Part shown: piece after piece, positions 7,711-45,211 of the stretch
How the letters are laid out: each line of letters starts with the position of its first letter
How positions within the stretch are numbered: the stretch's first letter is position 1
Source: an uncultured Bacteroidota bacterium
GTDB lineage: Bacteria; Bacteroidota; Bacteroidia; Flavobacteriales; Flavobacteriaceae
NCBI GenBank assembly: GCA_902515395.1
Contig: CABXUL010000001.1
Location: 51,494-115,493, forward strand
DNA: 64,000 bases
Reading direction: 5' to 3'
Program-made: the position numbers and the translations under genes
Notes under the pieces: model-generated
What the model was told of the DNA's origin: nothing
Seen by the model: the letters and a program-made list of their open reading frames with translations, nothing else
Databases searched by the model: none

Positions 7711-9141
7711 CTATTTTTGAGGCTTTTGATTTAGCCTTTTTCGCCACCTCTCCGTATGAATTAAACCTAAGAAAATGGGATCGATCAATTGAGAATCCCA
7801 AGCTTGAAGTATTGAGTCTAGACGTTGAACCTCCTTTGGAAAGAAATCAGCTAGGTTATTTTCCTCTCCTATGTCTTGATCCAGATTATATAGCTCTTTT
7901 ATGGTGTTTTTTTCCTTGGTCACTAATTTCATATCACCATCTCTAATGGAATAAAGGTCATTGTCAAATTTTCTTACATATAAAGTGTTATGAGGCCGTC
8001 CCCGTTTTAATCCTTTAAGAAAGGGAATTATATTCACACCATCTAACGGATTCTTTGCTTCTATAGGGGCATTTGTTAATTCAGCAATGGTTGGTAATAT
8101 GTCTAAACTCGAAATGGGATAATCATAAACCATTTGTGAAATTTCGCCTGTCCATTGCATTGCAAATGGAACTCGGTTGCCTCCCTCATAAATAGACGAC
8201 TTACCCTCTCTTAGTGGTCCATTATTTGACCCATTTTTTGATTCAGGCCCTCCATTATCTGAAAAAAAGAAAATAATAGTGTTATCAACTATCTCTAAAG
8301 ATTCCAACTTATCAAGAATTCTCCCGACTCCGTCGTCAACTGCACTTACCATCGCGGCATATGTTTTTCTTCTTTTATCTTTTATATGGTCAAATCGATT
8401 GAGATATTTTTGAGTCGCTTGAAGGGGGCCATGAGGGGCGTTATATGCCAAATACAAAAAGAAGGGCCCTTGCTTATTTTTAATTATAAAATTTACTGCC
8501 TCATTGGAAAATTCATCTGTTAAATATTCGTCTGTTTTTTCTGGTTTGTGATCCCTCATGATCCAGGTTTTGTAACTAAGAGGTTCGTCACTTATGGAAT
8601 AACTGTCCTTTATAGTCAATTCCTCAGGAAAATAATGGTGTCCTCCACCTAAGTGTCCATAAAAAAAATTGAATCCCCTGTTAAGTGGATGATTTGAAAT
8701 ATGTGCCCCCAAATGCCATTTACCAATTACTCCTGAAGTATAACCCACTTGGCCTATTACTTCAGGAATAGTTTTTTCCGTTTGTGGTAAACCCATATTT
8801 GGGTCATTGGGGCGGTATTGGGCGTTTCTTTCATAGCCAAAACGCTGCTGATATCTGCCAGTGATAAAACCTGCACGGCTTGGACTACAGACGGGATAAG
8901 GCGTATAGCCATTAGTAAACTTAACACCCTTTTGGGCAATACGGTCAATGTTGGGGGTAGGTATTTCCTCACTGCCATTGAACCCTACATCGCTATAACC
9001 CAAATCATCTGTCATGATTACAATTAAATTAGGTAATTTTTTATTAGATACTTTTTGGGGTTGATTTTCACAGCTCAATAGCATGACAAAAAAGAGTATA
9101 GATGTTGAGATAAATTTAATTTTTAAACTATTTTTTTTCAT
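7711..9141 (-). CDS. Sulfatase (Cys-type)
   Basis: IVIMTDDLGYSDVGFNG, CSPSRAGFITGRY motif, GKWHLG, FSDNGGP. Confidence 0.93.
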   Translation of the reverse strand: MKKNSLKIKFISTSILFFVMLLSCENQPQKVSNKKLPNLIVIMTDDLGYSDVGFNGSEEIPTPNIDRIAQKGVKFTNGYTPYPVCSPSRAGFITGRYQQRFGYERNAQYRPNDPNMGLPQTEKTIPEVIGQVGYTSGVIGKWHLGAHISNHPLNRGFNFFYGHLGGGHHYFPEELTIKDSYSISDEPLSYKTWIMRDHKPEKTDEYLTDEFSNEAVNFIIKNKQGPFFLYLAYNAPHGPLQATQKYLNRFDHIKDKRRKTYAAMVSAVDDGVGRILDKLESLEIVDNTIIFFFSDNGGPESKNGSNNGPLREGKSSIYEGGNRVPFAMQWTGEISQMVYDYPISSLDILPTIAELTNAPIEAKNPLDGVNIIPFLKGLKRGRPHNTLYVRKFDNDLYSIRDGDMKLVTKEKNTIKELYNLDQDIGEENNLADFFPKEVQRLDSILQAWDSQLIDPIFLGLIHTERWRKRLNQKPQK

Positions 9142-9215
9142 GTTTTGAAAAATAAACTTCTCTAAAATAGTTATAAATCATTAATTTGGAGTCACAACTA
9201 AATAATTGAACCAAT

Positions 9216-10754
9216 ATGACGTTAAAGTTTGAATTTACTGGCTTATTTTTATTTTTTGCATTATGTTTTATATCCTGTAACGAAAAGGAAACGCCAACAA
9301 AACCCAATATCATTATTGTCTATATGGACGATTTGGGATATGGGGATGTGAGTTACAACGGAGCTTCAAAGCTACAAACACCTAATATGGACGCGATGGC
9401 CATGGCTGGAATGCGATTCAATAACGGGTATGCTACTTCTGCGACATGTACCCCAAGTAGATACGCTCTGTTAACAGGAGTTTATCCTTGGCGGGAAAAG
9501 AGAGCTAAAATTCTTGCAGGTACTGCCCCATTGATTATTGGTACAGACCAGATGACTCTTCCGAAAATGCTTAAACAAGAAGGCTATCAAACGGCCATAA
9601 TAGGTAAATGGCATTTAGGCTTGGGCAATGGAAATGTCAATTGGAATAAGTTGGTAAGCCCTGGACCAAATCAAGTTGGCTTTGACTATTCTTATATTTT
9701 AGCGGCAACACAAGACAGGGTGCCCACTGTATATATCGAAGATGGAAAAGTAGTGGGATTAGACCCTAACGATCCTATCGAAGTAAATTATCAAAAGAAT
9801 TTCGAGGGAGAGCCGACAGGACTTGAAAATCCTGAACTATTGACTATGAATTGGCATCATGGTCATAACAGTAGTATTGTAAATGGAATCCCTAGAATTG
9901 GCTTTATGAAAGGAGGAGAAGCAGCTAAGTGGAGCGATATTTATATGGCAGATCATTTTTTGAATGGGATCCAAAAATATATTAAATCCCATAAGGGAAA
10001 GCCATTCTTTTTATATTATCCTATGCAGCAACCTCACGTACCTAGAACCCCTCACCCTAGATTCGAGGGGCTTTCAGAGTTGGGACCCAGGGGAGACGCT
10101 ATTGTAGAGGCTGATTGGTGTTTGGGGGAATTGAAAAAGACCTTGGAAGCTGAGGGTATTATAGACAATACCCTTATTATTTTTTCTAGTGATAATGGAC
10201 CAGTTCTAAATGACGGTTATTATGATGATTCAGATGTAAAAAATGGTGATCACCTGCCCTCGGGACCCTTAAGAGGAGGTAAATATAGTCTTTTTGAAGC
10301 AGGTACCCGGGTACCATTTTTCACTTATTGGAAAGGAAAAATAAAACCTGGAGTTTCAGATTCTATGCTAAGTCAATTGGATCTTTTGTCATCTTTGGCT
10401 CAATTAGTGGGTAGTGAAGTTAGGACTGCTGATAGCCTTCCTTTACTAGAATTACTTTTGGGTCAATCAGATGAGGGTAGAGATGAAATGGTAATTGAAG
10501 CTACCTCCAGAACTGCCTTTAAAAGAGGAGATTGGGTAATGATTCCCCCTTATGAAGGACCCGCAGTGAATGATAAAGTTCAAATTGAATTGGGGAATGA
10601 TTCCGATTTCCAACTTTATAACCTTACTGAAGATATTGAACAGCAAAATAATCTCGCAGCTCTAAAGCCCGACAAACTTCAGGAGATGTTAACGGCTTTT
10701 GAGGCTATTAGAGGAGATGATTATGGGAAAATTGAGAAACTAGAACTGAAATAG
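9216..10754 (+). CDS. Sulfatase (Cys-type, arylsulfatase A-like)
   Basis: IIIVYMDDLGYGDVSYNG, CTPSRYALLTG, GKWHLGLG, SSDNGPV. Confidence 0.93.
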   Translation: MTLKFEFTGLFLFFALCFISCNEKETPTKPNIIIVYMDDLGYGDVSYNGASKLQTPNMDAMAMAGMRFNNGYATSATCTPSRYALLTGVYPWREKRAKILAGTAPLIIGTDQMTLPKMLKQEGYQTAIIGKWHLGLGNGNVNWNKLVSPGPNQVGFDYSYILAATQDRVPTVYIEDGKVVGLDPNDPIEVNYQKNFEGEPTGLENPELLTMNWHHGHNSSIVNGIPRIGFMKGGEAAKWSDIYMADHFLNGIQKYIKSHKGKPFFLYYPMQQPHVPRTPHPRFEGLSELGPRGDAIVEADWCLGELKKTLEAEGIIDNTLIIFSSDNGPVLNDGYYDDSDVKNGDHLPSGPLRGGKYSLFEAGTRVPFFTYWKGKIKPGVSDSMLSQLDLLSSLAQLVGSEVRTADSLPLLELLLGQSDEGRDEMVIEATSRTAFKRGDWVMIPPYEGPAVNDKVQIELGNDSDFQLYNLTEDIEQQNNLAALKPDKLQEMLTAFEAIRGDDYGKIEKLELK

Positions 10755-10912
10755 GTCAGAAAACTACCTCCCATTTTCCCTATGGAATTGAATAAAAGGA
10801 ATCTAGTGGAATCTTTTCGCCGTTTATTTTTATCGGTTTTATTTTCAATATCGAAAATTTAACTCTATCATAGAATAAATGGATTAAATATAAAAATCAA
10901 TTTTTGGATATT

Positions 10913-12685
10913 TTAGATACGCTTAAATAGCATCAGCCTGAAATCCATAAGTGATTCCCCATTTTTTTTAATGGCCTTTAAGCTCAAAGTTCCTAGTCCT
11001 TTTTCGAGATTAATTACACCAATATTTAATGGTTTAAAATCTTTCACATATGATTCTGTTCTTAGACTACGATCTTCTATAGCTCCATATTCTTTAGGGT
11101 TATGTTCTTCCGATATTTTACCTAAAATACTATTACTTCCAAAGCTGACTTCAAATTCAGAGCCAATTGCATCTCTCATACAGGTATAGTAAATTATTAC
11201 TTCAAAGCTTCCCGCCATAGCTACTTCTACTTCCCAAGTTATTTTATCCTCTATATTAATCCAATTGGTGAAGTATGTACAGTTGGGGTGTCTATTTGAG
11301 CGTATAATAGCGCCGTGAGCTTTCCCATCTCTAGCTGGAATTTGTGTAGTCTGAACACTGTGATGACCAATAAAAAAAGGCCTAATATCTTTTTTTGGCA
11401 GTTCAACTAAAACCTCTTTTTTCCATTGTTTTTTTGCTTGAAAAAGCTTTTCCAAAACATCTGTTTGTTTTTCACTGATATCTGTAGTTTGATTTGGATC
11501 ATTCAACATGTCGAATAACTTATTATCCTTGTCCAATCGATAATTTTGACTTCTCACACTAAACCGACCTTTCCAATAGTTATATATTATACGATCTTCC
11601 CAGTTTACAGTTTTATTTAATATCAATGGCTTTAGACTAATTCCATCAAGAGGTTTTTTGGATTTTACTTTAATCCCAGCTAAATCTTTTAGGGTAGGTA
11701 ATAGGTCAATCACGCTAGTAATTTTTTTGATGATCTTACCTTGTGGAATTTTCCCTTTCCAATTCATAATTAGAGGGGATCTAACACCACCTTCATCAGT
11801 AGTTCCTTTTATACCTTTCATCTCATCATTCCAACGTTTACCATTAGGGCCATTGTCAGATAGGTAAATCACAATTGTATTTTTAGATAAACCTTGTCTT
11901 TCGACTTCTTCTAAAATCCGGCCAACATTCCAGTCAATATTTTCACACATCGCAAGCGCAGCCCTAGTGTGGTCAATTTGATGTTGTGTTTTGAAGGGCC
12001 CATTACTTCCAATTTGACTTAATGTTTTATTTTTAAACTTTTCCCAAAAAACATCGGGAACTTGCATTGGGCTATGCGGAGTATTAAGGGGTAAGTATAG
12101 GAAAAATGGATTGGCTTTATTTTTTTTAATGAAATCAATTCCATGGTTTGTAAGGTCATCAATTATAAAACCTTCTCCTTTAACTAAATTACCATTGTGC
12201 TCCAACACAGGATTATAATAATTCCCCCAATGTCCTGAACAAAAGCCATAGTAGTCGTCAAAACCCCTGCTGTTTGGATGGTAAGGGGCTTGCATACCGT
12301 TGTGCCATTTACCATATGCTGCAGTGCTATAGCCAGCCTTTTTAAAAACCTGAGCAATAGTTTGTTCGTCAATGTCAAGTCTCTCACCTCCTGTGCTCGT
12401 ACTATATACTCCTCCTCTAACATGATAACGACCAGTCAATAACTCTGCCCTTGTTGGAGAGCAAACAGGACTAACAAAAAAACGATCAAATTGAACTCCA
12501 GTTCTTCCTAATTTGTCAATATTTGGTGTTGAGAGATCAAGATTTCCTTTAATGCTTAAATCTCCCCATCCTTGATCATCAGTAAGTATAATAATAACAT
12601 TAGGAGGGTTCTCTTTTTGATATTTGCATCCAAGACAAATTATAATTAGTAGGGCTCCAAAAGTATTAATTAGATTAAATTTCAT
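10913..12685 (-). CDS. Sulfatase with C-terminal beta-sandwich-like extension
   Basis: IILTDDQGWGDLSIKGN, CSPTRAELLTGRYHVRGGV, YGKWHNG, LSDNGPNG; ~130-aa extension after the sulfatase core. Confidence 0.92.
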   Translation of the reverse strand: MKFNLINTFGALLIIICLGCKYQKENPPNVIIILTDDQGWGDLSIKGNLDLSTPNIDKLGRTGVQFDRFFVSPVCSPTRAELLTGRYHVRGGVYSTSTGGERLDIDEQTIAQVFKKAGYSTAAYGKWHNGMQAPYHPNSRGFDDYYGFCSGHWGNYYNPVLEHNGNLVKGEGFIIDDLTNHGIDFIKKNKANPFFLYLPLNTPHSPMQVPDVFWEKFKNKTLSQIGSNGPFKTQHQIDHTRAALAMCENIDWNVGRILEEVERQGLSKNTIVIYLSDNGPNGKRWNDEMKGIKGTTDEGGVRSPLIMNWKGKIPQGKIIKKITSVIDLLPTLKDLAGIKVKSKKPLDGISLKPLILNKTVNWEDRIIYNYWKGRFSVRSQNYRLDKDNKLFDMLNDPNQTTDISEKQTDVLEKLFQAKKQWKKEVLVELPKKDIRPFFIGHHSVQTTQIPARDGKAHGAIIRSNRHPNCTYFTNWINIEDKITWEVEVAMAGSFEVIIYYTCMRDAIGSEFEVSFGSNSILGKISEEHNPKEYGAIEDRSLRTESYVKDFKPLNIGVINLEKGLGTLSLKAIKKNGESLMDFRLMLFKRI

Positions 12686-33300: not shown

Positions 33301-34042
33301 AAAAAAGGACATGAGTATCATGAATTTTATTGATTCAGATTTTGCTATGCTAAATCAAAATCTCGCTGAATTTTATGGTATTAAGGGAGTTAAGGGGAAT
33401 AAATTCAGGCCTGTAAAATTATCTGAAAGACATAAAAGAGGGGGATTGCTTTCCCAAGGATCTTTTCTCAGTGGTCATTCAGATGGTGTTCAAGCTCATA
33501 CTATCAAAAGAGCTGTTTGGTTAAAAGAAAAAATACTTGGTGAACACCCACCACCTCCTCCACCAAATGTTCCCGAAATTGATCCAGATACCCCAGGCTT
33601 TGAAAATTTATCTTTAAAAGAACAACTTTTTTTACATAGAAATAAGGTCTCCTGCATGGATTGTCATCGTAAAATAGATCCTTTTGGCGTTGTCTTTGAA
33701 AACTATGATGCTGTTGGGAGGTTTCAATTATCTTTTAATGAAAAATTGATTGATGCAAAGTCAGAGTTACCAGATGGAACTGAAGTGGAAGGTATAGAGG
33801 GAATTAAGAACTATATTTTAGATTTAAAAAAGGATAATTTCACAAAATCATTGGTAAAAAATTTATTTACATATGCATTAGGCCGAGATGTAAATTTTGC
33901 AGATGAAAAAGAAATTAATAATATTGTAGAAGAAGTTAAGGATGATGATTATAGATTTAGAACGATAATCGAACAAATAGTCTTGAGTCCCTCTTTTTAT
34001 AAAAAAGAAGAAAGTTGGTTTAATAAATTAGTTGGTGGATGA
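30392..34042 (+). CDS. PSCyt1/DUF1587/DUF1592/DUF1588/DUF1585-type membrane cytochrome-like protein
   Basis: N-terminal TM region, CFECH haem motif, RRLTKRQYTNSLNELL, RAFRRPLNQGELDRYL, CMDCHRKIDPFGVVFENYDAVGRF. Confidence 0.9.
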   Translation: MKKRSLIFAVLSSILLLGLLKIPLNGEFDNTFIFFLGRFHPIILHLPIGALIVLFFMELIDSVNSKLNLESACNILLWFSVVSIIPTLLLGFLLGSSGNYDDELLNSHKWLGWFTALICVWLVVIREKKSKSNPNKVSNFYRVFLFVNVILLSLAGHYGGYLTHGEDYLTKYMPVAMKKMIGLDNENAEYVVINEEVDDYSSEVVYYENTIRPIIQTYCFECHNVDKQKGDMRLDTLHWDMRNQRHAERWHEALNVINLGEMPPKKKKQLDDSERRILVNWLTENLEKASLARKKDNKGVMRRLTKRQYTNSLNELLDVSVNFGDVLPDDGKSKMGFTNNGNVLQTSSLHLDYYQKIAREALEKAIVSGEKPESKHYRVKIGKNIGSGNSGAEFRGYQTAPIDNENLIVDVFNTDGTPITHLENNLLDPLTLLKNKIGIGMRGSHSNRYSVVDEGIILNSALPAKEVTPKSWQGPSPNLKLLIKEDFPRTGDFAFRVNASKGYNSTSIERLINLRENSPRLDESSSITVSAKDIMLKLRKEGSTNGLILRDNRWLMPKDFADYVWTKFNYTVPKSGLYQIDLVHPYVPNDANPSYRISILDKHDHGIVSKRLFINEQYKDDYEIVTPVTLAYLSEGNHTGYIGGRFFVGFSNIIFSPLSEDDPLPEILQEEARVDDLKYASINPTIQVFAGSRTDDGMDYKTFHRPVEVTASHGQNQTFEFTGRLENLPIPQSSDDVSGELANIFTIGLWNNHLVKESSLKGPPLLIKSVEFEAPYFPIWPPKSHKSIFFDSPNESNLDIYAEEVISRFMERAFRRPLNQGELDRYLSFWKSIKDDFYNFQDSIKEVLVAVLCSPNFIYLFETENQELEETSNQHYLASRLSYFLWNSPPDKTLTSLANKGRLQKKLPDQIDRMINSPKIEQLVKTFADEWLRLDRYKTMDIDVERYEDFTRFVQEDMLNETYSFVHYVLKKDMSIMNFIDSDFAMLNQNLAEFYGIKGVKGNKFRPVKLSERHKRGGLLSQGSFLSGHSDGVQAHTIKRAVWLKEKILGEHPPPPPPNVPEIDPDTPGFENLSLKEQLFLHRNKVSCMDCHRKIDPFGVVFENYDAVGRFQLSFNEKLIDAKSELPDGTEVEGIEGIKNYILDLKKDNFTKSLVKNLFTYALGRDVNFADEKEINNIVEEVKDDDYRFRTIIEQIVLSPSFYKKEESWFNKLVGG

Positions 34043-35385
34043 GTAAAAAATCGTGGCATATTGACCGAAGGACCTTTCTCAGGGGGCTTGGAGTAACCTG
34101 TATGCTACCATACCTTGAAGGAATGGCAATGACCACTGTTTCAAGGTTTACAGAGCCTTTAACTCCAAAACGACTTTGTTTCTTATATTTTCCTAATGGT
34201 GTTGGACTTCCCCCTGAAGATAGCATCTATCACAAAGAGTGGAGTTGGTTTCCAAAAGTTGAGGGTAATAAATATAAATTGACTAAGTCTCTCTCACCAT
34301 TGTCTCCGCATCGAAGTGATATGTCAATTTTGGGTGGCTTAAGCCATCCGTTTAGTCGTAATGTATTAGGTCATATGGCCGGTGATTCTTTTCTTACTGG
34401 GGGGGATCTACGCGGTGTGTATAAAAATAGTATTTCAGTTGATCAGCTTGCTGCCATGGAATTAAGTAAATATACCCGTTTTCCATCACTCACCCTATCC
34501 ACTGATGGTGGTGTAGGTTACAAATCCAGAACATCTACACTCTCATTTAATTCCTCAGGAAAACCAATTCCCTCCGAACATCGTTTGAGAGAAATTTTTG
34601 AGCGTTATTTTTCTCCAAATGGAAACTCAACAACTAAAGAAAGAAGAAAAAGTATTAATCAGGGAAAAAAGATCGTTGATCTTGTTCTTGAAGATAGTAG
34701 AAGTCTAAAAAATCGTCTAGGTTCAAACGATAAGGATAAAATAGAAGAGTATTTATCATCACTCAATGAGATAGAAAAACAGTTGAATAGAAATGAAAAG
34801 TGGTTAGAGGTTCCCATGAAAGATTTCGATTCAAGTTTAATTAATCTCGATTTAGATCCAACTACTGCCCCGAAAGACTATGTTCGATCGATGTTAGATA
34901 TAATTGTCCTTGGATTTCAAACTGATGCCACTAGGGTAATATCATATATGATGGCTCGCGAAGACGGTATGGGCTTTGGTGATAATTTCCCAAAAATCGC
35001 TTTGGGACTTAAAGGGCACCATACTATTTCACACGATAAAACAACCGGACATTGGGCTGAATGGGGACGATTAGATAGATGGTATGCGGAACAATTTTCC
35101 TATTTCATTGATAAAATGAAAAAAACTAAGGATATTCACGGTTCATTGCTTGATAACACATTAATACTTTATGGAAGTTCTCAAAGCACTAATCACAATG
35201 CTAGAAATTGCCCTCTTATCTTAGCAGGTGGATCAAATTTTGATGTGAAACATGGTGTATTTAAAAAGTTTGATGAAAAAGATGAAAGATTATCTAATCT
35301 TTTTGTGAGTATGCTTAATAAAATTGATATAAAAACTGAGAGTTTCTCGGATAGTACCCGAAAACTATCAACTTCTATTTTGTAA
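34039..35385 (+). CDS. DUF1552 protein
   Basis: WHIDRRTFLRGLGVTCMLPYLEGMA leader; FLYFPNGVG; ATRVISYMMAREDG; overlaps the upstream stop, as is usual for DUF1592/DUF1552 pairs. Confidence 0.88.
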   Translation: MSKKSWHIDRRTFLRGLGVTCMLPYLEGMAMTTVSRFTEPLTPKRLCFLYFPNGVGLPPEDSIYHKEWSWFPKVEGNKYKLTKSLSPLSPHRSDMSILGGLSHPFSRNVLGHMAGDSFLTGGDLRGVYKNSISVDQLAAMELSKYTRFPSLTLSTDGGVGYKSRTSTLSFNSSGKPIPSEHRLREIFERYFSPNGNSTTKERRKSINQGKKIVDLVLEDSRSLKNRLGSNDKDKIEEYLSSLNEIEKQLNRNEKWLEVPMKDFDSSLINLDLDPTTAPKDYVRSMLDIIVLGFQTDATRVISYMMAREDGMGFGDNFPKIALGLKGHHTISHDKTTGHWAEWGRLDRWYAEQFSYFIDKMKKTKDIHGSLLDNTLILYGSSQSTNHNARNCPLILAGGSNFDVKHGVFKKFDEKDERLSNLFVSMLNKIDIKTESFSDSTRKLSTSIL

Positions 35386-35395
35386 TAAATTTAAC

Positions 35396-35773
35396 TCAGT
35401 TTTTTGGTTTGAAATAAGTGAGCACAGCCAAACCAAACATAACAATATCCAATGCAAAGTCCTGAATACCCATATTAGTCATGGGGGAAACCGACATACA
35501 ATAAAAGGCTATAAAAAGGGGGATGTATGCAATAATAATAGCTAATAAAAGTTTTTTTGCATTTTCAATTCCGGTATTTCTACTAAATAGTAACATAAGA
35601 CCAATCATTAGAAAGGCAGGTGAAATGGCATATTGAAACATCAAAGCTAATTGAGTAGCCTCATCTCCGATATTAAACATCATTTCAATGGCAGGTTTAG
35701 CAAAAGCGCTATATAGTATAGCCTGTAATACTTGAAGAGTACCAATTATAGTTAGCGTTATTTTTGTTTTCAT
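35396..35773 (-). CDS. Hypothetical 4-TM protein
   Basis: Hydrophobic 125-aa ORF. Confidence 0.55.
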   Translation of the reverse strand: MKTKITLTIIGTLQVLQAILYSAFAKPAIEMMFNIGDEATQLALMFQYAISPAFLMIGLMLLFSRNTGIENAKKLLLAIIIAYIPLFIAFYCMSVSPMTNMGIQDFALDIVMFGLAVLTYFKPKN

Positions 35774-35844
35774 TTTCAGGTGGTTTTTTTAATTCCTCAG
35801 TTTTTCATTAATTGAACAGGTTGTTAAGATGATGAGAGAGTATA

Positions 35845-36033
35845 TTAGTTAGCCCTATTTTTTGGTTTTTTATTTGGAATCCTACCAAAATTACCAGAAC
35901 CATCATAATCAATGGTGTCTGTTTCAACTCGATTAGGTTTATCCTCTTTTATTTCTTTTGAATTAAATAAAATCCCGAGAAGGAATATCATGAAGACAAT
36001 AAGTCCAAAAATGAAAATTCCAGATAGACTCAT
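35845..36033 (-). CDS. Small single-TM protein
   Basis: MSLSGIFIFGLIVFMIFLLGILFNS; TAATG overlap with the upstream micro-ORF. Confidence 0.5.
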   Translation of the reverse strand: MSLSGIFIFGLIVFMIFLLGILFNSKEIKEDKPNRVETDTIDYDGSGNFGRIPNKKPKNRAN

Positions 36034-36194
36034 TACTTATAAATTTGCTTAATGTATGCCCCTGCAGCTAAAATGGAAGGAACCCAAATACCAACGTATA
36101 GTCCCTCTTGTTGCTGGCCATTAAACCAAAGGTAAACCGAGAAAAGAAAGCTAATAAATGCAGCAAGTAAAATACAATAGTCAGATTTTTTCAT
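36033..36194 (-). CDS. 53-aa membrane micro-protein (not in ORF track)
   Basis: MKKSDYCILLAAFISFLFSVYLWFNGQQQEGLYVGIWVPSILAAGAYIKQIYK*; shares a TAATG junction with 35845-36033. Confidence 0.6.
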   Translation of the reverse strand: MKKSDYCILLAAFISFLFSVYLWFNGQQQEGLYVGIWVPSILAAGAYIKQIYK

Positions 36195-36239
36195 CATGAA
36201 TTTTGATTTAAAATAAATCCTATAAAAAAGTATTTATAG

Positions 36240-37136
36240 TTATTCAACTGATTTATTAACTCTGAAGAATTCTTCATCCGAGTCAATCCAAGAAAAATCA
36301 CTGGTGGCTTTTTTTGTAATTGGATTATAAAAAATTTCTAAATACTTAAGTCTTTTAATGCTTTTCACTTTCACTTGAGCAATGAATACATGGTAGTGAT
36401 ATTTATCAAAAGGACTTAAAAAAGTTGCGTAGGAGTCCCATATGATATTTCTTGTGTACTCTACATTGTTGTAATTACTTTTAACAAAACTTCTAATAGT
36501 TTTATTTATCTCAACTACGTTGAGGGGAATAATTTCGCCCTCTTTAAGGTTTTTAGTTTCCATAACATCTAAAAAACCTTGATGTTCAGATATAAAATCG
36601 TCTAAGGTTGCTTTTTGTTCTAAGTTACCAATTCCTAAATCAATTAAATCTGGTTTTTTCTTTTGATTCTCCTCTTTATCACCAGATAAATAAAATTCTT
36701 CATCCTCCTCTATCCACTCATAATCGCCAAGGACCTCGCCGTTATAGGGATTGAAATTTACTTCAACATATTTTAAACGATCAATATCATTAACTTTTAC
36801 CTGGGCAATGAATGTGTGATAGTGATATCTATTAGAGGGGCTCAAAAAGGTAGTATAAGAATCCCAGATGATATTTCTTGTATATTCTACTATTTCAGGA
36901 TACTTTTCCTCTACAAAAAATCTAATTTTTTTATTAATTTCCTTTATGTTAATTGGGGTAATTTCTCCAACTTCATTCTCTTCAAATCCACTATGCTCAA
37001 TAATAAAATCCTCAATTTTGATTATATCTTGACTATAAACAGATAGATTAAAAACAAAAATTAGGGGCGCAACTGCTAAAAACTTTTTTAACATGATAGA
37101 TAATTTTTTACTAAAGATAATAAATATCAAATTCAA
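36240..37136 (-). CDS. Secreted hypothetical protein with two tandem ~100-aa repeats
   Basis: VEYTRNIIWDSYTTFLSPSNRYHYHTFIAQVKVNDIDRLKYVEV vs VEYTRNIIWDSYATFLSPFDKYHYHVFIAQVKVKSIKRLKYLEI. Confidence 0.75.
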   Translation of the reverse strand: MNLIFIIFSKKLSIMLKKFLAVAPLIFVFNLSVYSQDIIKIEDFIIEHSGFEENEVGEITPINIKEINKKIRFFVEEKYPEIVEYTRNIIWDSYTTFLSPSNRYHYHTFIAQVKVNDIDRLKYVEVNFNPYNGEVLGDYEWIEEDEEFYLSGDKEENQKKKPDLIDLGIGNLEQKATLDDFISEHQGFLDVMETKNLKEGEIIPLNVVEINKTIRSFVKSNYNNVEYTRNIIWDSYATFLSPFDKYHYHVFIAQVKVKSIKRLKYLEIFYNPITKKATSDFSWIDSDEEFFRVNKSVE

Positions 37137-37235
37137 TAAAATTTTGATGAAGAAAATTAAATTTCAAGTGGATTCTTGAATAATGATAATTAGAAATTCA
37201 TAGAGAAAAATTATACATTGATTTAAAATCTTTTC

Positions 37236-38561
37236 TTAGGTTGAAAAAAATCTAAATAAGTCATTACCATTAGCATATATAACCAGAGCCATAAGAAGAA
37301 AGAATCCAGCAATTTGAGCATATTCCATAAATTTATCATTCGGTTTTCTACCAGATACCATTTCATAAATCAAAAACATGACATGTCCTCCATCCAATGC
37401 TGGGATTGGTAATAAGTTCATGAATGCTAAAATTATGGAAATAAAAGCCGTACTTGCCCAAAACCCTTTCCAATTCCAAGTATCAGGAAAAAGACTTCCA
37501 ATAGCACCGAAACCGCCTAGTTGAGAAGCTCCTTTTTTGGTAAAAACGTACTTAAATTGAGCTACATAATCATATAATGTCCAATATCCGTAGCTAAAAC
37601 CCTCTACTATACTTTGGCTAAACGACAATTCAACTTGATCTAATTTTATTACATTCCTTGGCATTACTCCCATTTTTCCATTGCCGTCAAGTCTCATGCT
37701 TAAAGTGTCAATTGACATATCATTCACAACAATATAATTGACCACTTGATTAGCATTATCATTATTGAACTTACTAAGATCCATCCAATCATCTATTGTT
37801 ACGCCATTTGCTGAAATGATTTTATCTCCTGTTTTAATACCAGCTTGACCGGCTGGTTTATTTGCCAAAACACTGTCGACAATTGCAGGTGATCTAGGGT
37901 ATAAAATACTTAACTCACCAGATTCAAACATTCTATTACCAATATTTTCGGGGATAGGGATTATAACTTTGCTTTGGTTAGCTCTTTCAACTACAACTTC
38001 TTTTACACCTCTAATAAGTAACATTTTATTGATATCTAAAGCAATATCTAATTGTTTCCCATCGACTAAAAGAATTTGATCTCCTTCTTCAAAACCAATT
38101 TCTTTTGCCAATGATGATACTCCCAATCCCATTGGAAGTGAACTGTTTGGAAGCATATTTTTCCCCCAAACAAATAAAATCATCATGTAGATTAAGAAAC
38201 CTAAAAATAGATTTACAGTAACACCTCCTAGCATAATAATTAACCTTTGCCATGCAGGTTTGCTTCTAAATTCCCATTCCTTAGGAGCCTCTTGCATTTG
38301 TTTAGTATCCATGCTCTCATCGATCATCCCAGAGATTTTAACGTATCCTCCTAATGGCAACCAACCAATTCCATAAACTGTATCGCCTACCTTCTTTTTA
38401 AATAATGCAAATTTTACATCGAAGAATAAAAAGAACTTTTCAACTCTTGTCTTAAATATCTTGGCTGGAATAAAATGTCCAAGTTCGTGCAAAATGATTA
38501 AAAAAGATAAACTTAGTAGCAATTGAATGCCTTTAAGCAAAAAGGGTTCCATAGTATTCAT
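37236..38561 (-). CDS. rseP: RseP site-2 metalloprotease
   Basis: IILHELGHFIPAKIF (HExxH), PDZ domain (AGIKTGDKIISANG), LLPIPALDGGH. Confidence 0.93.
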   Translation of the reverse strand: MNTMEPFLLKGIQLLLSLSFLIILHELGHFIPAKIFKTRVEKFFLFFDVKFALFKKKVGDTVYGIGWLPLGGYVKISGMIDESMDTKQMQEAPKEWEFRSKPAWQRLIIMLGGVTVNLFLGFLIYMMILFVWGKNMLPNSSLPMGLGVSSLAKEIGFEEGDQILLVDGKQLDIALDINKMLLIRGVKEVVVERANQSKVIIPIPENIGNRMFESGELSILYPRSPAIVDSVLANKPAGQAGIKTGDKIISANGVTIDDWMDLSKFNNDNANQVVNYIVVNDMSIDTLSMRLDGNGKMGVMPRNVIKLDQVELSFSQSIVEGFSYGYWTLYDYVAQFKYVFTKKGASQLGGFGAIGSLFPDTWNWKGFWASTAFISIILAFMNLLPIPALDGGHVMFLIYEMVSGRKPNDKFMEYAQIAGFFLLMALVIYANGNDLFRFFST

Positions 38562-38662
38562 AATTTTTGGAGACCAAAAATACCAATTTTTAATAGACTT
38601 TTTGACGAAATTAAATTAAAAACTAAAGGAGTCGTTTTTTTTCATTTTTTAATCGATTATCT

Positions 38663-39346
38663 TTGATGTCAATGGATATATTTTCAAAATATAGGCGGTT
38701 TTTTATTTTACTTGGATTAGTTTCTTTAATCATAATATTGCTTTTCTATGAAGCACTTTTACCTCCCAAAAAACTACCTGTATTTCAACCTGCAATGGTA
38801 AATTTTGAATTGGTGGATAGTACGATGCAACATGTTAAAAAATTTCACCGAGTTGCAGAGTTTGAGTTGATTAATCAAAATGGGAAAACTATAACCCACG
38901 AAAATTTTAGAGGTAAAATATATATAGCGGATTTTTTTTTTACAACTTGTCCGACTATCTGTATAGCTATGACAGATAATATGTTGAAAATTCAAAAAGA
39001 AGTCCAAAATAACCCTAATATACTTTTGATTTCTCACTCTGTTACCCCAAAAATTGATTCGGTCTCTCAATTAAAAAAATATGCAATTGAGAAAGGTGTA
39101 ATCGACAATAAATGGCACTTGGTTACAGGAGATAAAAAAGAAATTTATGAGCTTGCTAGAAAATCTTATCTAGCAGTAAAGGATGAGGGAGATGGAGGGC
39201 CCTTTGATATGATTCATACAGAGAATTTTATTTTAGTTGATCCAGATAAGAGGATTCGTGGGTTTTATGATGGTACTGACCTAAAGGAAATCGATAGGTT
39301 ACTTTTAGAATTAGATATTTTAAGCTCCGAATACTTTAATAATTAA
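38663..39346 (+). CDS. SCO1/SenC family protein
   Basis: IADFFFTTCPTICIAMTDNM, ...HSVTPKIDSVSQLKKYA, HTENFILVDPDKRIRGFYDGT. Confidence 0.9.
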   Translation: MMSMDIFSKYRRFFILLGLVSLIIILLFYEALLPPKKLPVFQPAMVNFELVDSTMQHVKKFHRVAEFELINQNGKTITHENFRGKIYIADFFFTTCPTICIAMTDNMLKIQKEVQNNPNILLISHSVTPKIDSVSQLKKYAIEKGVIDNKWHLVTGDKKEIYELARKSYLAVKDEGDGGPFDMIHTENFILVDPDKRIRGFYDGTDLKEIDRLLLELDILSSEYFNN

Positions 39347-39351
39347 TTTTT

Positions 39352-39921
39352 ATGATTATATATATGAATAATTTTAACATTTTTAAGAGTTCACTATCCA
39401 TGTTTTTAATAATTTTTTCTTCAATTCTTAATTCTCAAGAATTGGTTATTGGTGTGGAAAGACTCAAACCAGGAATCGCAATAGTTTTTGAGGGAGCAAT
39501 TAAAGATAAAATATATCCAACCAATATTAATCTTGATATCAATGATACAGATGTTCATATCGAAGCTAGGATAAATTGGGACAGTAATGCTACCCCCTCG
39601 GGGTCTCCAATGGGTGGATTTATTCCATATTTAAATGTAAAAGCAAAAATTACAAATCAGAAAACTGGTCTTAACATTTTAGTTGACCTTATTCCACACA
39701 TTAATTTAAGTGACAATTTTCACTATGCGAGAAATATTTCTTTGCCAGGAAATATTGATGATTTATACAATATTGAATTTATAATTAAACCCCCTAAAAA
39801 AATTGATTTATCATTTCATAATGATTGGTTAAAAAAATATGGTGATAGATTGATCGATGAGCAAAATTTTAAATACAGTAATATCAATTTTTATGAGGTA
39901 GCTAAAGCGACTAGAAGCTAA
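39352..39921 (+). CDS. Hypothetical protein (periplasmic Fe2+-transporter-like/DUF-type)
   Basis: Signal peptide; IHIEARINWD...GSPMGGFIPYLNVKAKI...NLSDNFHYARNISLPG; family tentative. Confidence 0.5.
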   Translation: MIIYMNNFNIFKSSLSMFLIIFSSILNSQELVIGVERLKPGIAIVFEGAIKDKIYPTNINLDINDTDVHIEARINWDSNATPSGSPMGGFIPYLNVKAKITNQKTGLNILVDLIPHINLSDNFHYARNISLPGNIDDLYNIEFIIKPPKKIDLSFHNDWLKKYGDRLIDEQNFKYSNINFYEVAKATRS

Positions 39922-39971
39922 ATATATGTTCTCATTATCCGTTATTTTTTAAGCTTTCTTTAGTAAAAAAG

Positions 39972-41267
39972 TCACCTTGAAGACATTAAAAATTCAATCT
40001 CATCTGGATCTTTTGGTATATTTTTAGTCAAATTAATAGGCCCACCTTTTTCTTGAACGACAATATCCTCCTCGATTCTTATTCCAAAACTTTCTTCAGG
40101 AATATAAATACCAGGCTCTACTGATAAGACCATATTAGGCTCTATTGGTTCTTCAATCAATCCATAGTCATGTGTGTCTAATCCTAAATGGTGTGAGGTA
40201 CCATGCATATAATATTTTTTATAAGCTGGATTTTTTTTGTCTTTAATATTTAAATCTTTCTTGTCTAACAAGCCCAAATCAATTAATGCCGAGGACATGA
40301 TTTTACCTACTTCCTGATTATATTCCTTAATGAGCGTTCCCGGCACTAATAGTTTCATTGATTCCTCTCCAATTTTTCGGACTGCATCATAAACCCTTCT
40401 TTGACGAGGGGTGAATTTCCCTGAAACAGGAATGGTTCGGGTCATATCACTAGCATAATTTCCATATTCTGCTCCAACATCTATAAGGATTAGGTCACCT
40501 GATTGGCATTTAGAATTGTTTTGTGTGTAATGCAACACATTGCTGTTTTGCCCTGAGGCAATTATAGGAGAGTAAGCGAAACCTTTAGAACGGTTTTTTA
40601 TAAATTCATATACAAATTCTGCCTCAATTTCGTATTCCCAAACCCCAGGCTTAACAAAATCTAAAACTCTTCTAAACCCTTTTTCAGTAATATTAACAGC
40701 TTGCTGAATTTGGCATATTTCTTCTTTATGTTTTAAAGACCTCAGCCTTTGTAAAATAAAATTACTTTTTTCATGTTGGTGGGTTGGATATTTTTTCTTT
40801 GCCCATTCAATAAAACGATCCTCTCTGGTTTGCGTTTCTATATTAGCGCGATAATGCTCGTTAGTATTAAAGTAGATAGATTTAGCCTCTTTTGTTAACT
40901 GATTAAATAATGAATTAAAATCATCTGTCCACAAAACAGTTTGGATACCAGATATATTAGTCGCTTCTTTTTGGGATAGTTTTGCACCTTCCCAAACCGC
41001 AATATGATTATTTGTTTTTTTAACAAACAATACTTCTCTGTGATTAGAATTTTTTGCATCTGGGAATAACAAAAGAACACTCTCTTCTTGATCAATGCCA
41101 CTGAGATAAAAGATATCTCTATGTTGCTGGAAGGGCATTTTACTGTCTGCACTGATTGGATAAATGTCATTAGAATTAAAAACAGCTAATCCCCCTTGAG
41201 AAATAGCATCCATAAATCTAGCCCTGTTACTTCTATAGAAACTTGAGCTAAGGGGTATGTATCGCAT
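39972..41267 (-). CDS. pepP: Xaa-Pro aminopeptidase P-type (M24)
   Basis: LILIDVGAEYGNYASDMTRTIPVSGKFTPRQR, HGTSHHLGLDTHD, LSVEPGIYIPEE. Confidence 0.92.
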   Translation of the reverse strand: MRYIPLSSSFYRSNRARFMDAISQGGLAVFNSNDIYPISADSKMPFQQHRDIFYLSGIDQEESVLLLFPDAKNSNHREVLFVKKTNNHIAVWEGAKLSQKEATNISGIQTVLWTDDFNSLFNQLTKEAKSIYFNTNEHYRANIETQTREDRFIEWAKKKYPTHQHEKSNFILQRLRSLKHKEEICQIQQAVNITEKGFRRVLDFVKPGVWEYEIEAEFVYEFIKNRSKGFAYSPIIASGQNSNVLHYTQNNSKCQSGDLILIDVGAEYGNYASDMTRTIPVSGKFTPRQRRVYDAVRKIGEESMKLLVPGTLIKEYNQEVGKIMSSALIDLGLLDKKDLNIKDKKNPAYKKYYMHGTSHHLGLDTHDYGLIEEPIEPNMVLSVEPGIYIPEESFGIRIEEDIVVQEKGGPINLTKNIPKDPDEIEFLMSSR

Positions 41268-41423
41268 ATTTATGTGTAATTAAAATAGATATATGAATTT
41301 AGAAAATTAATTTAATTATCTAATCTATAATTAAGTATCTATTGGATTGGCTCAGAAAATATTGTGTTTTAGTTTTTTCTATTCGATGTTTATGGAGTAA
41401 TTTTGCCATAATACAATATCTAG

Positions 41424-42080
41424 ATGATTAAAACTTCGATAGCCAGAAAAGTAGCTATGGCACTTTCAGGACTGTTTTTAATACTTTTTTTAGGACAGCA
41501 TTTCACTATCAATATTACTTCTGTTTTTAGTGAAAAAACTTTCAACATGCTTTCTCATTTTATGGGAAATAACCCTCTGGTTCAGTTTATCTTACAGCCA
41601 ATATTAATTTTTGGTGTGATTTTCCATTTTATTATGGGATTTGTTTTACAAATAAAAAACACAAAAGCTCGAAAGCAGAATTATGAATCATTTAAAGGTA
41701 ATTCAAATTCAAGTTGGATATCACGAAACATGATCCTCTCTGGAATTGTTATACTTTCTTTTCTTGGCCTACATTTTTATGACTTTTGGGTCCCTGAAAT
41801 TAACTATAAATACGTTGAATTTTTACCTAATGATCCAGACCGTTATTATATAGAATTGGTTCATAAGTTTCATAGCCCTATTAGAGTATTAATATATTGT
41901 TTGTCATTTGTTTTTTTAGGATTGCATCTTCTCCATGGATTTTCATCATCATTCCAGTCTGTTGGCATGAATAATAAATATACGAATGGAATTAAATTTC
42001 TAACGGTAGCTTTCTCAATATTTGTACCCGTAGGGTTCATTTTCATTGCAATTTTTCATCACTTAAATGTAGTTAACTAA
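41424..42080 (+). CDS. sdhC: Succinate dehydrogenase cytochrome b subunit
   Basis: TSIARKVAMALSGLFLILFLGQH, 5-TM Bacteroidota SdhC; upstream of sdhAB. Confidence 0.92.
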   Translation: MIKTSIARKVAMALSGLFLILFLGQHFTINITSVFSEKTFNMLSHFMGNNPLVQFILQPILIFGVIFHFIMGFVLQIKNTKARKQNYESFKGNSNSSWISRNMILSGIVILSFLGLHFYDFWVPEINYKYVEFLPNDPDRYYIELVHKFHSPIRVLIYCLSFVFLGLHLLHGFSSSFQSVGMNNKYTNGIKFLTVAFSIFVPVGFIFIAIFHHLNVVN

Positions 42081-42086
42081 CAACCG

Positions 42087-42159
42087 AAATGTACCTCAAA
42101 TGTACCTCAAATAAATTTTTTAGCTTAACAGTGTACCTTACAAAAATTGTGTACCTTTG
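42087..42159 (+). promoter_or_regulatory. Four GTACCT repeats (42091, 42102, 42133, 42151), last one forming a TACCTTTG -7-like box
   Basis: AAATGTACCTCAAATGTACCTCAAA tandem (11-bp period), then GTGTACCTTA and GTGTACCTTTG just before the chimeric sdhA ATG. Confidence 0.65.
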
Positions 42160-42174
42160 TTTATAAGATAGATT

Positions 42175-44457
42175 ATGAAACTAAATAAAGTTAAAATAAG
42201 ATATAGAAAAAATTCCAATGGAACTACTTCTATTAGGCTTAACTACTTCGGTGGATACTCATATGAAAATGGCATTAAAAAAGCTTTGAGGTTAATTAGG
42301 ACTTTACCTGATCATTTGATCACTAATCCTAATACAGAAAAAGATAAATTAAAAAATATTCATTTAAAAGAACAAGCTCTTATTATCGCATCCGATTGGG
42401 AAAAAAATCTGTTGTTAAAAAAAAATGAATCATCATTTAAAAAGAATAATTTCTTTTCAAATCTAAACTCCAAAATACCTGATGGACCTCTTGCTGATAA
42501 ATGGACAAATCATAAGAGTAAAATTAATCTAGTCAGCCCTGCTAATAAACGTTCAATTGATATAATTGTTGTTGGAACAGGACTTGCAGGAGCATCTGCT
42601 TCTGCGACTTTAGCTGAATTAGGATATAATGTAAAAACATTTTGTTTTCAGGATTCACCCCGTCGTGCACACTCGATTGCTGCGCAGGGAGGAATCAATG
42701 CTGCCAAAAACTATCAGGGAGATGGTGATTCAACTTATCGTCTATTTTATGATACTATTAAAGGTGGGGATTATCGCTCACGAGAGGCAAATGTTTACAG
42801 ATTGGCTGAAGTTTCTACTAATATAATTGATCAATGTGTTGCTCAGGGGGTTCCTTTTGCTAGAGATTATGGAGGGTTACTTGATAATCGATCTTTTGGA
42901 GGGGTTTTGGTTTCTAGAACTTTTTACGCCAAAGGCCAGACTGGTCAGCAACTTTTATTGGGAGCTTATTCAGCAATGAATAGGCAAATAGCCCGAGGGA
43001 AAATAAAAATGTACAACCGTCATGAAATGATGGATTTAGTCCTCGTTAATGGCAAAGCAAGAGGAATTATCGCCAGAAATTTAGTTAATGGTGAAATAGA
43101 AAGGCATAGTGCTCACGCTGTTGTTATTGCCTCTGGAGGTTATGGAAATGTTTTCTTTCTTTCGACCAATGCCATGGGGAGTAATGTTTCTGCTTCATGG
43201 AAAATTCACAAACGTGGTGCTCACTTTTGCAACCCTTGTTATACTCAGATCCATCCAACTTGTATTCCTGTCTCAGGTGAGCATCAGTCTAAATTAACTC
43301 TAATGTCTGAGTCATTAAGAAATGATGGCAGAATTTGGGTTCCTAAGAAGCTTGAAGATGTTAAGGCAATTAAGTCTGGAGAATTAAAACCAACAGATTT
43401 AAATGAGAATGACAGAGACTATTATTTAGAGCGCCGATACCCTGCTTTTGGAAATTTAGTTCCTCGAGATGTTGCTTCAAGAGCTGCAAAAGAACGGTGT
43501 GATGCTGGATTTGGTGTAAATAAGACTGGAGAGGCTGTATACTTAGATTTTGCTGCTGCAATTACTCGTTACGGAAAAGAACAAGCTCTAGTTAAAGGAC
43601 AAGATGAAAATGATCCCATATTAGTGAAAAAACTTGGTCAGGAAGTTGTTCGCGCAAAGTATGGGAATCTTTTTCAGATGTACGAAAAAATTGTTGATCA
43701 AAACCCCTATGAAACTCCTATGATGATATATCCAGCAGTTCATTATACCATGGGAGGTGTTTGGGTTGATTATAATTTAATGACAAGTATTCCTGGATGC
43801 TATGCTATTGGAGAGGCAAATTTTTCCGACCACGGTGCTAATAGATTAGGTGCATCAGCATTAATGCAGGGACTGGCTGATGGATATTTTGTTCTTCCAT
43901 ACACAATTGGCGATTATCTTTCCGATGATATTAGAACTGGACCTATTTCAACTGATACGCCTGAATTTGAATCTGCTGAAAAAGAAGTTAAAAATCGTAT
44001 AGATTCTTTAATTAACAATAAAGGAAAAAATTCAGTTGATTTTTATCACAAAAAATTAGGTAAAATCATGTGGGATAAATGCGGGATGTCGAGAAATACT
44101 AAAGGATTAAAAGAGGCAATGATTGAAATTAAAAAATTGAGAGAAGATTTTTATAAGAACGTTAGCGTTCCTGGATCTTCAAGTGAGTTTAATGAGCAAC
44201 TTGCCAAAGCTGGCCGTGTTGCTGATTTTTTAGAATTAGGAGAATTATTCGCCAAAGATGCTTTAGAGAGAACCGAGTCTTGTGGAGGTCACTTCAGAGA
44301 AGAATCTCAAACACCGGAAGGAGAGGCTCTTAGAGACGATAAGAATTTTAGTTTCTCCTCCGCTTGGGAATATAATGGTGAGCCTTCAAAAGCCAAGTTA
44401 CATAAAGAGCAACTTAAATTTGAAGCAATAGAGGTTAAAACACGGTCTTATAAATAA
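42175..44457 (+). CDS. sdhA: Chimeric succinate dehydrogenase flavoprotein: tyrosine-recombinase arm-type domain fused to SdhA
   Basis: SdhA core intact ([57 protein letters not shown]). Residues ~1-90 ([24 protein letters not shown]...[36 protein letters not shown]) resemble the N-terminus of Bacteroidota integrases. Confidence 0.88.
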
Positions 44458-44464
44458 AATTAAT

Positions 44465-45211
44465 ATGGATCTTACACTTAAAATATGGCGTCAAGCCAAT
44501 GTTGATGAGGATGGAAAAATAGTAAATTATTCCATTTCAGACGTTTCTCCGGATATGTCTTTCTTGGAGATGATGGACATGCATAATGAGCAGCTAATTA
44601 ACAAGGGAGAAGACCCTGTCGCTTTTGATCATGACTGTCGAGAGGGAATTTGTGGAATGTGCTCAATGTTTATTAATGGTGAAGCACACGGACCGGACCG
44701 ACTTGTAACGACTTGTCAGCTTCATATGCGAAAATTTAAGGATGGTGATACTATCGTAATTGAGCCATTTAGAGCAAATGCGTTTCCTGTAATTAAGGAT
44801 TTAGCAGTAGATAGATCTGCTTTTGATAGAATTCAACAGGCAGGTGGTTTTATAAGTGTTAATACCTCAGGGAATACACAGGATGCTAACGCTATTCCCA
44901 TTGAGAAACATGACGCTGATAAGGCTTTTGATGCTGCAACTTGTATAGGGTGTGGTGCTTGTGTAGCAAGTTGTAAAAATGCTTCTGCAATGCTCTTTGT
45001 TTCCGCTAAAGTATCACAATATTCTCTTTTACCCCAAGGAAAAGTTGAGGCTACAGATCGAGTTTTGAACATGGTGAAGCAAATGGATGAAGAGGGGTTT
45101 GGAAATTGTACCAATACTGGGGCATGTGAGGTTGAGTGCCCCAAAGGAATTTCACTTGAAAATGTTGCTAGAATGAATAGTGAGTATTTATATGCTAGCT
45201 TAAAAGGGTAA
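44465..45211 (+). CDS. sdhB: Succinate dehydrogenase iron-sulfur subunit
   Basis: [47 protein letters not shown]. Confidence 0.97.

Follow-up and report, generated by a model that had tools for sequence, protein, structure and literature searches.

A mobile-element-type DNA-binding domain on succinate dehydrogenase SdhA: a candidate self-regulating flavoenzyme in Flavobacteriales

Introduction

Succinate dehydrogenase is a central enzyme of the tricarboxylic acid (TCA) cycle and of respiration. The question addressed here is why a domain of mobile-element type should precede its flavoprotein subunit, SdhA, in an uncultured member of the Flavobacteriaceae, and what it may do there. The locus lies in a stretch of 64,000 nucleotides of contig CABXUL010000001.1 (assembly GCA_902515395.1), hereafter referred to as the window. 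An initial annotation, made from the nucleotide sequence, had interpreted the extra domain as the fossil of an integrase insertion.

An extended SdhA in an ordinary operon

The sdhA open reading frame (42175-44457, forward strand) encodes 760 amino acids without any stop and is flanked on the same strand by sdhC (41424..42080; membrane anchor, Pfam Sdh_cyt) and sdhB (44465..45211; iron-sulfur subunit, assigned from its reading frame and a domain search). SdhA of congeners measures about 667-671 residues and starts some 20 bp past the sdhC stop, so that the roughly 95 additional in-frame codons pointed out in the initial annotation are indeed there, the protein being about 93 residues longer at the N-terminus than usual for flavobacterial SdhA. 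The closest congeners (G006 and G019) have no such extension and share 97% identity with the window's SdhA from residue 93 to residue 760; in the alignment with them, the position of the native start methionine is occupied by Phe94 (TTT, 42454-42456). No further in-frame ATG is met until far inside the SdhA core, and the TTG at 42412, proposed earlier as the one possible restart of translation, is in frame as codon 80.

The reading frame runs directly from the extension, through a linker (residues 84-94, 42424..42456, forward strand) that ends in Phe94 and is delimited by the alignment to congeners and by low pLDDT, into the SdhA core (42457..44457, forward strand). This core scores 1166 bits against NF005749/PRK07573, for a cut-off of 866, and contains the Pfam domains FAD_binding_2 and Succ_DH_flav_C. 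No second SdhA was found in the genome, where the other matches correspond to a distant paralogue of about 525 residues. In other words, the locus shares with the flavobacterial SdhA of this family both the full-length enzyme and the sdhC-sdhA-sdhB operon, and differs from it in the added N-terminal residues and in a wider gap between sdhC and sdhA, in which operator-like sites lie.

The extension, a homologue of the arm-binding domain of integrases

The initial annotation had read the extension as an arm-type DNA-binding domain of integrases and had suggested a domain search on the N-terminal residues. Searched alone against Pfam, NCBIfam and PHROGs, the extension gave no meaningful match; the identification came instead from the comparison of profiles. 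Specifically, the domain occupying SdhA residues 1-83 (42175..42423, forward strand), designated type A, was aligned as a family with integrase N-terminal domains by hhalign with a probability of 99.4 (E 5e-22), and one integrase N-terminus of the type A kind matches PF17293, Arm-DNA-bind_5, at 9e-10. In addition, when 400 genomes of the family were searched with a profile built from five type A domains, six SdhA fusions came up at E < 1e-42, together with some 30 weaker matches that are for the most part N-termini of tyrosine recombinases of 380-430 residues. On the basis of these profile comparisons, residues 1-83 are a homologue of the arm-binding domain with which tyrosine recombinases of Bacteroidota begin, and the view of a TCA-cycle enzyme provided with a predicted DNA-binding module is upheld.

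Structural modelling is consistent with this assignment. The topology of arm-binding domains is b-b-b-a, and AlphaFold returned a confident b-b-b-a model, with block-mean pLDDT of 91-97 over residues 11-80, followed by a low-confidence linker; AF2 modelling of full-length SdhA, based on a shallow alignment, reached a pLDDT of only 44 and was set aside. As Foldseek detected no significant structural match for the type A domain in the PDB or among viral models, the claim on the fold is limited to topology. The core-binding and catalytic domains of a recombinase are absent, as the frame enters SdhA and no Phage_integrase match is found, and no PF17293 integrase domain was detected elsewhere in the window's own genome, which is 68% complete. 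Viral collections searched with this domain and with a second arm-type domain, type B, gave no match, nor did phages. Within type A, the window's domain is the most divergent, being 48-57% identical to the others.

Three types of domain at the same position of SdhA

The type A profile was also used to scan 84,980 species genomes, an independent collection. Twelve loci were found, in Flavobacteriaceae and in unplaced Bacteroidetes assemblies, and all twelve are SdhA fusions, so that the search of related genomes for the same chimera, as advised at the outset, was successful. Several of the fusion-bearing records are titled MAG and some have AG- style isolate names, which we take to denote single-cell genomes of marine bacteria. 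Since the same chimera occurs in all the loci of this independent collection, an assembly artefact as the source of the fusion junction is ruled out. Altogether, the type A-SdhA fusion is present in about a dozen flavobacterial genomes besides the window, belonging to many genera.

Moreover, type A is not the only domain found at this place. The type B domain is fused to SdhA in six genomes (G025, G435, G099, G194, G376 and G111) and also in G482, of another family; it is unrelated to type A by profile (hhalign probability 1.1) and related to another set of integrase N-terminal domains (probability 99.8, E 8e-28). A third domain, type C, is an excisionase-like HTH_17 domain (E 9e-15), fused to SdhA in 8 of about 11 genomes seen of family f6. 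All the fusions found are in frame. In the tree of SdhA cores the fused genes are scattered, and its well-supported branches cannot be reconciled with fewer than three changes for type A or fewer than two for type B. Sequence comparison indicates three separate captures of DNA-binding domains at the same SdhA position in different lineages. A literature search, with thin coverage of subscription papers, found no report of such SdhA fusions. In the 400-genome sample, the 12 fused genomes all measure 2.1 Mb or less, as compared with about 55 genomes of such size by hand count; as the fused lineages are related, this association with small genomes is a hint only.

Individual loci show further peculiarities. 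No ATG precedes the fused domain in L096-L098, L101, L103 and L104, where the likely start is a TTG just ahead of it. Type C fusions with GGACAAA-type repeats in the gap are found at L132, L147-L152, L154 and L155 of family f6; one of these genomes, G500, has two different SdhA genes (L150 and L151), both HTH-fused, in an assembly with 5% contamination whose bin may hold two organisms. The type B fusion of G482 (L158) has an unusually long linker and a stop-to-stop frame of 827 residues. Other long stop-to-stop frames (L043, L044, L050-L054, L056-L058, L060-L062, and likewise L153, L156, L157, L159 and L161-L163) were discarded, being ordinary SdhA read upstream and not fusions.

Operator-like sites between sdhC and sdhA

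Ahead of the sdhA ATG of the window, four TGTACCT sites are predicted on the forward strand from motif counts and spacing: TGTACCTC at 42090..42097, again TGTACCTC 11 bp further (42101..42108), TGTACCTT 31 bp past the second site (42132..42139) and TGTACCTT after another 18 bp (42150..42157). The fourth overlaps a candidate promoter, TACCTTTG (42152..42159, forward strand), proposed by consensus match only, which fits TAnnTTTG, the -7 promoter element of Bacteroidota. No convincing -33 element was found for it, and TAnnTTTG is not clearly enriched across the type A gaps (4 occurrences vs 1.7 expected).

The sites themselves are strongly over-represented. TG[TC]ACC occurs 34 times in the 1,253 bases of 13 type A gaps, vs about once in shuffled sequence; GTGTTA[CT] 21 times in type B gaps (0.8 expected), in both orientations; and [AG]GACAAA 22 times in type C gaps (0.6 expected). 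The spacing of type A sites is maintained in distant genomes (11-31-18 in the window and in L099, 11-29-18 in L095, 12-30-17 in L102), with some type A members having only one or two recognisable sites left. In the window's genome, 1.67 Mb at 68% completeness, the paired pattern TGYACCTN{3,13}TGYACCT has two matches, both in the gap, vs none in the control. In one type C locus (L147, genome G493), the operator-like region upstream of the fused sdhA is itself tandemly duplicated, over roughly 110-130 bp.

Integrases offer a parallel. Among those with a type A N-terminal domain, direct repeats spaced by 11 bp stand right before the start in 10 of 20, vs 0.45 expected, no other repeat offset being clearly enriched, and these repeats resemble the type A motif (TACACCTC, TGTACCTC). 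Because integrases with the same domain carry such similar repeats, the type A domain and its sites probably moved together. In its layout the sdhA locus recalls the beginning of an integrase module, composed of sites and arm domain, SdhA standing where the recombinase would be.

A ready-made cassette imported by recombination

The comparison with congener G003 shows how the fusion entered the window's lineage. Identity is 97-100% over 37.3-41.6 kb, falls to 62-80%, where alignable, over 41.66-42.55 kb, and is back to 98-100% over 42.56-43.0 kb; the congeners G003 and G006 are themselves 89-96% alike over the 41640-42550 stretch. As the drop is restricted to that stretch, the 3' two thirds of sdhC, the operator-like sites, the DNA-binding domain and the first 28 or so residues of the SdhA core were imported together (41640..42550, no strand assigned). 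Judged from this identity profile, the fusion reached the lineage ready-made on a homologous recombination tract of about 0.9 kb, and the original capture of the type A domain lies outside the window's lineage. The insertion of an integrase between sdhC and sdhA with later deletion of its catalytic domain, as initially envisaged, is thereby refuted for this lineage. In a search for the donor of the tract, the best full-length match was only 69% identical.

A direct repeat of the sdhC 3' end in the window, TCATCAyTTAAA, considered as an att-type duplication, was dropped, given that the whole stretch lies in the imported tract and that repeats of this type were not seen in the other fused loci examined. 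Within 34001-41600 of the window, near 36.4-37.3 kb, the identity to G003 rises abruptly, from about 82% to 97-100%, and that to G006 stays near 84-97%; this pattern represents other recombination tracts in this genus.

Constraint on the type A domain and persistence of a type B domain after replacement of the enzyme

In unsaturated pairs from the group L096-L104, six loci closely related to one another, dN/dS of the type A domain is 0.05-0.17 vs 0.02-0.05 for the core. The type A domain is under purifying selection where this is measurable, that is, in one related lineage; as the window's domain diverges most from the others, the case for selection on it rests on these relatives. Relaxed selection, as in a pseudogene, is not what the related group displays. 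The notion of a fossil fusion does not survive these data, taken together with the recurrence of the fusion, always in frame, the kept spacing of the sites and the presence of unrelated domains at the same place.

A different kind of evidence comes from genome G180 (locus L125, C13:50000-68000, 8559-12611, reverse-complement), in which the ordinary SDH genes are gone from the locus. Their place is taken by a foreign sdhCAB that belongs to the PRK07803/PRK12386 class, its sdhA and sdhB scoring above the NCBIfam cut-offs. Before this operon, and next to the M24 peptidase gene that also neighbours the window's locus, stands an open reading frame of 131 residues that contains a type B domain and what seem to be the first residues of the old SdhA. 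GTGTTAC/TGTAACAC sites lie ahead of it, and between the domain and the foreign operon are stretches that appear to be left over from sdhC and from the start of the old SdhA. Domain and sites have outlasted the exchange of the enzyme, as expected of a regulator.

A model of autogenous control and its alternatives

PutA is a flavoenzyme whose N-terminal DNA-binding domain represses its own regulon and which switches to the membrane (PMC5293562). At the sequence level the SdhA fusion has the same layout, a DNA-binding domain at the N-terminus of a membrane-associating flavoenzyme, and the locus probably encodes a PutA-like, autogenously controlled succinate dehydrogenase. According to this model, the arm-binding domain of a tyrosine recombinase would have been taken over together with its arm sites, the sites becoming an operator between sdhC and sdhA and the domain settling on the SdhA N-terminus. 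SdhA not assembled with membrane SdhC would occupy the four TGTACCT sites and thereby keep down transcription of sdhAB from a promoter located in the gap, and assembly at the membrane would take SdhA off the DNA and relieve repression. As in PutA, flavoprotein output might in this way be matched to anchor supply or respiratory demand. Repression rather than activation, as well as the membrane switch, are suggested by analogy; the overlap of site 4 with the TAnnTTTG-like element would suit repression.

The analogy has its boundaries. The ribbon-helix-helix, proline dehydrogenase and P5C dehydrogenase domains of trifunctional PutA are absent from the SdhA fusion, which has another fold and is another enzyme, a subunit of a respiratory complex, with domains derived from integrases or excisionase-like proteins; and repression of the own operon is demonstrated for PutA (PMC5293562), whereas it is proposed for SdhA. 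Integrase genes are widely negatively autoregulated (PMC2951348), which explains how such a module could be ready to use. The integrase IntS of KplE1 acts on sites of the att region, which overlap the promoter, to repress its own gene (PMC2951348), a layout similar to that of the window, where SdhA takes the place of the core-binding and catalytic domains. MrpR of prophage SPbeta (PMC10516654) is likewise a tyrosine-recombinase protein turned transcriptional repressor, but it is a phage repressor that retains the overall recombinase fold, whereas the SdhA fusion uses the arm domain alone, on a metabolic enzyme.

Among the alternatives, a functional domain acting mainly elsewhere, with the sites at sdhA as one target among others, is the least unlikely. 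As a subunit of a membrane complex that carries a DNA-binding domain, SdhA could signal the respiratory state to other genes or tether the chromosome to the membrane, and the genome-wide site search covered the exact paired pattern only; yet that pattern is confined to the sdhC-sdhA gap in the 68%-complete genome, and the sites travel with the domain. It is more doubtful still that the domain is an inert leftover of an integrase, carried along in frame because SdhA lost its own start codon. The integrase origin, the missing native methionine and the sporadic distribution among close relatives would fit, but an inert remnant hardly accounts for low dN/dS in relatives, conserved number and spacing of sites, three unrelated DNA-binding domains at one place, arrival as a finished cassette or survival of the replacement of SDH in G180.

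Two further readings have very little probability. One places control at the RNA level, with the domain binding its own mRNA leader and the repeats acting as RNA elements, as their position directly before the sdhA start codon might suggest; against it, similar repeats are also found ahead of integrase genes, where the encoded domain is an arm domain that binds DNA, spacings of about 11 bp fit a turn of the DNA helix, type B sites occur in both orientations and type C is a classical HTH. The other, equally improbable, regards the module as a selfish cassette that propagates through recombination from one sdh locus to another and brings its host no benefit: recombination did bring it into the window's lineage and its distribution on the SdhA tree is patchy, but neither a recombinase nor any other gene for mobility is part of it, and the same behaviour would have to be assumed separately for each of three unrelated domains.

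Perspectives

Autogenous control by SdhA is directly testable by a binding assay and a reporter. In a broader perspective, it seems reasonably likely that in Flavobacteriales succinate dehydrogenase has come to regulate its own transcription on three or more independent occasions, by capture of mobile-element-type DNA-binding domains, two of the three being arm domains that probably came with their sites, and that the cassette moves between species by homologous recombination. If true, the DNA-binding domain and the operator would both have come from mobile elements, several times, as a regulatory module ready for use, and SdhA would join PutA as a second natural example of a membrane flavoenzyme tipped with a DNA-binding domain. 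In marine bacteria whose genomes are small, about 2.1 Mb or less in all cases seen, a central enzyme of the TCA cycle and of respiration would then be an autogenous regulator.
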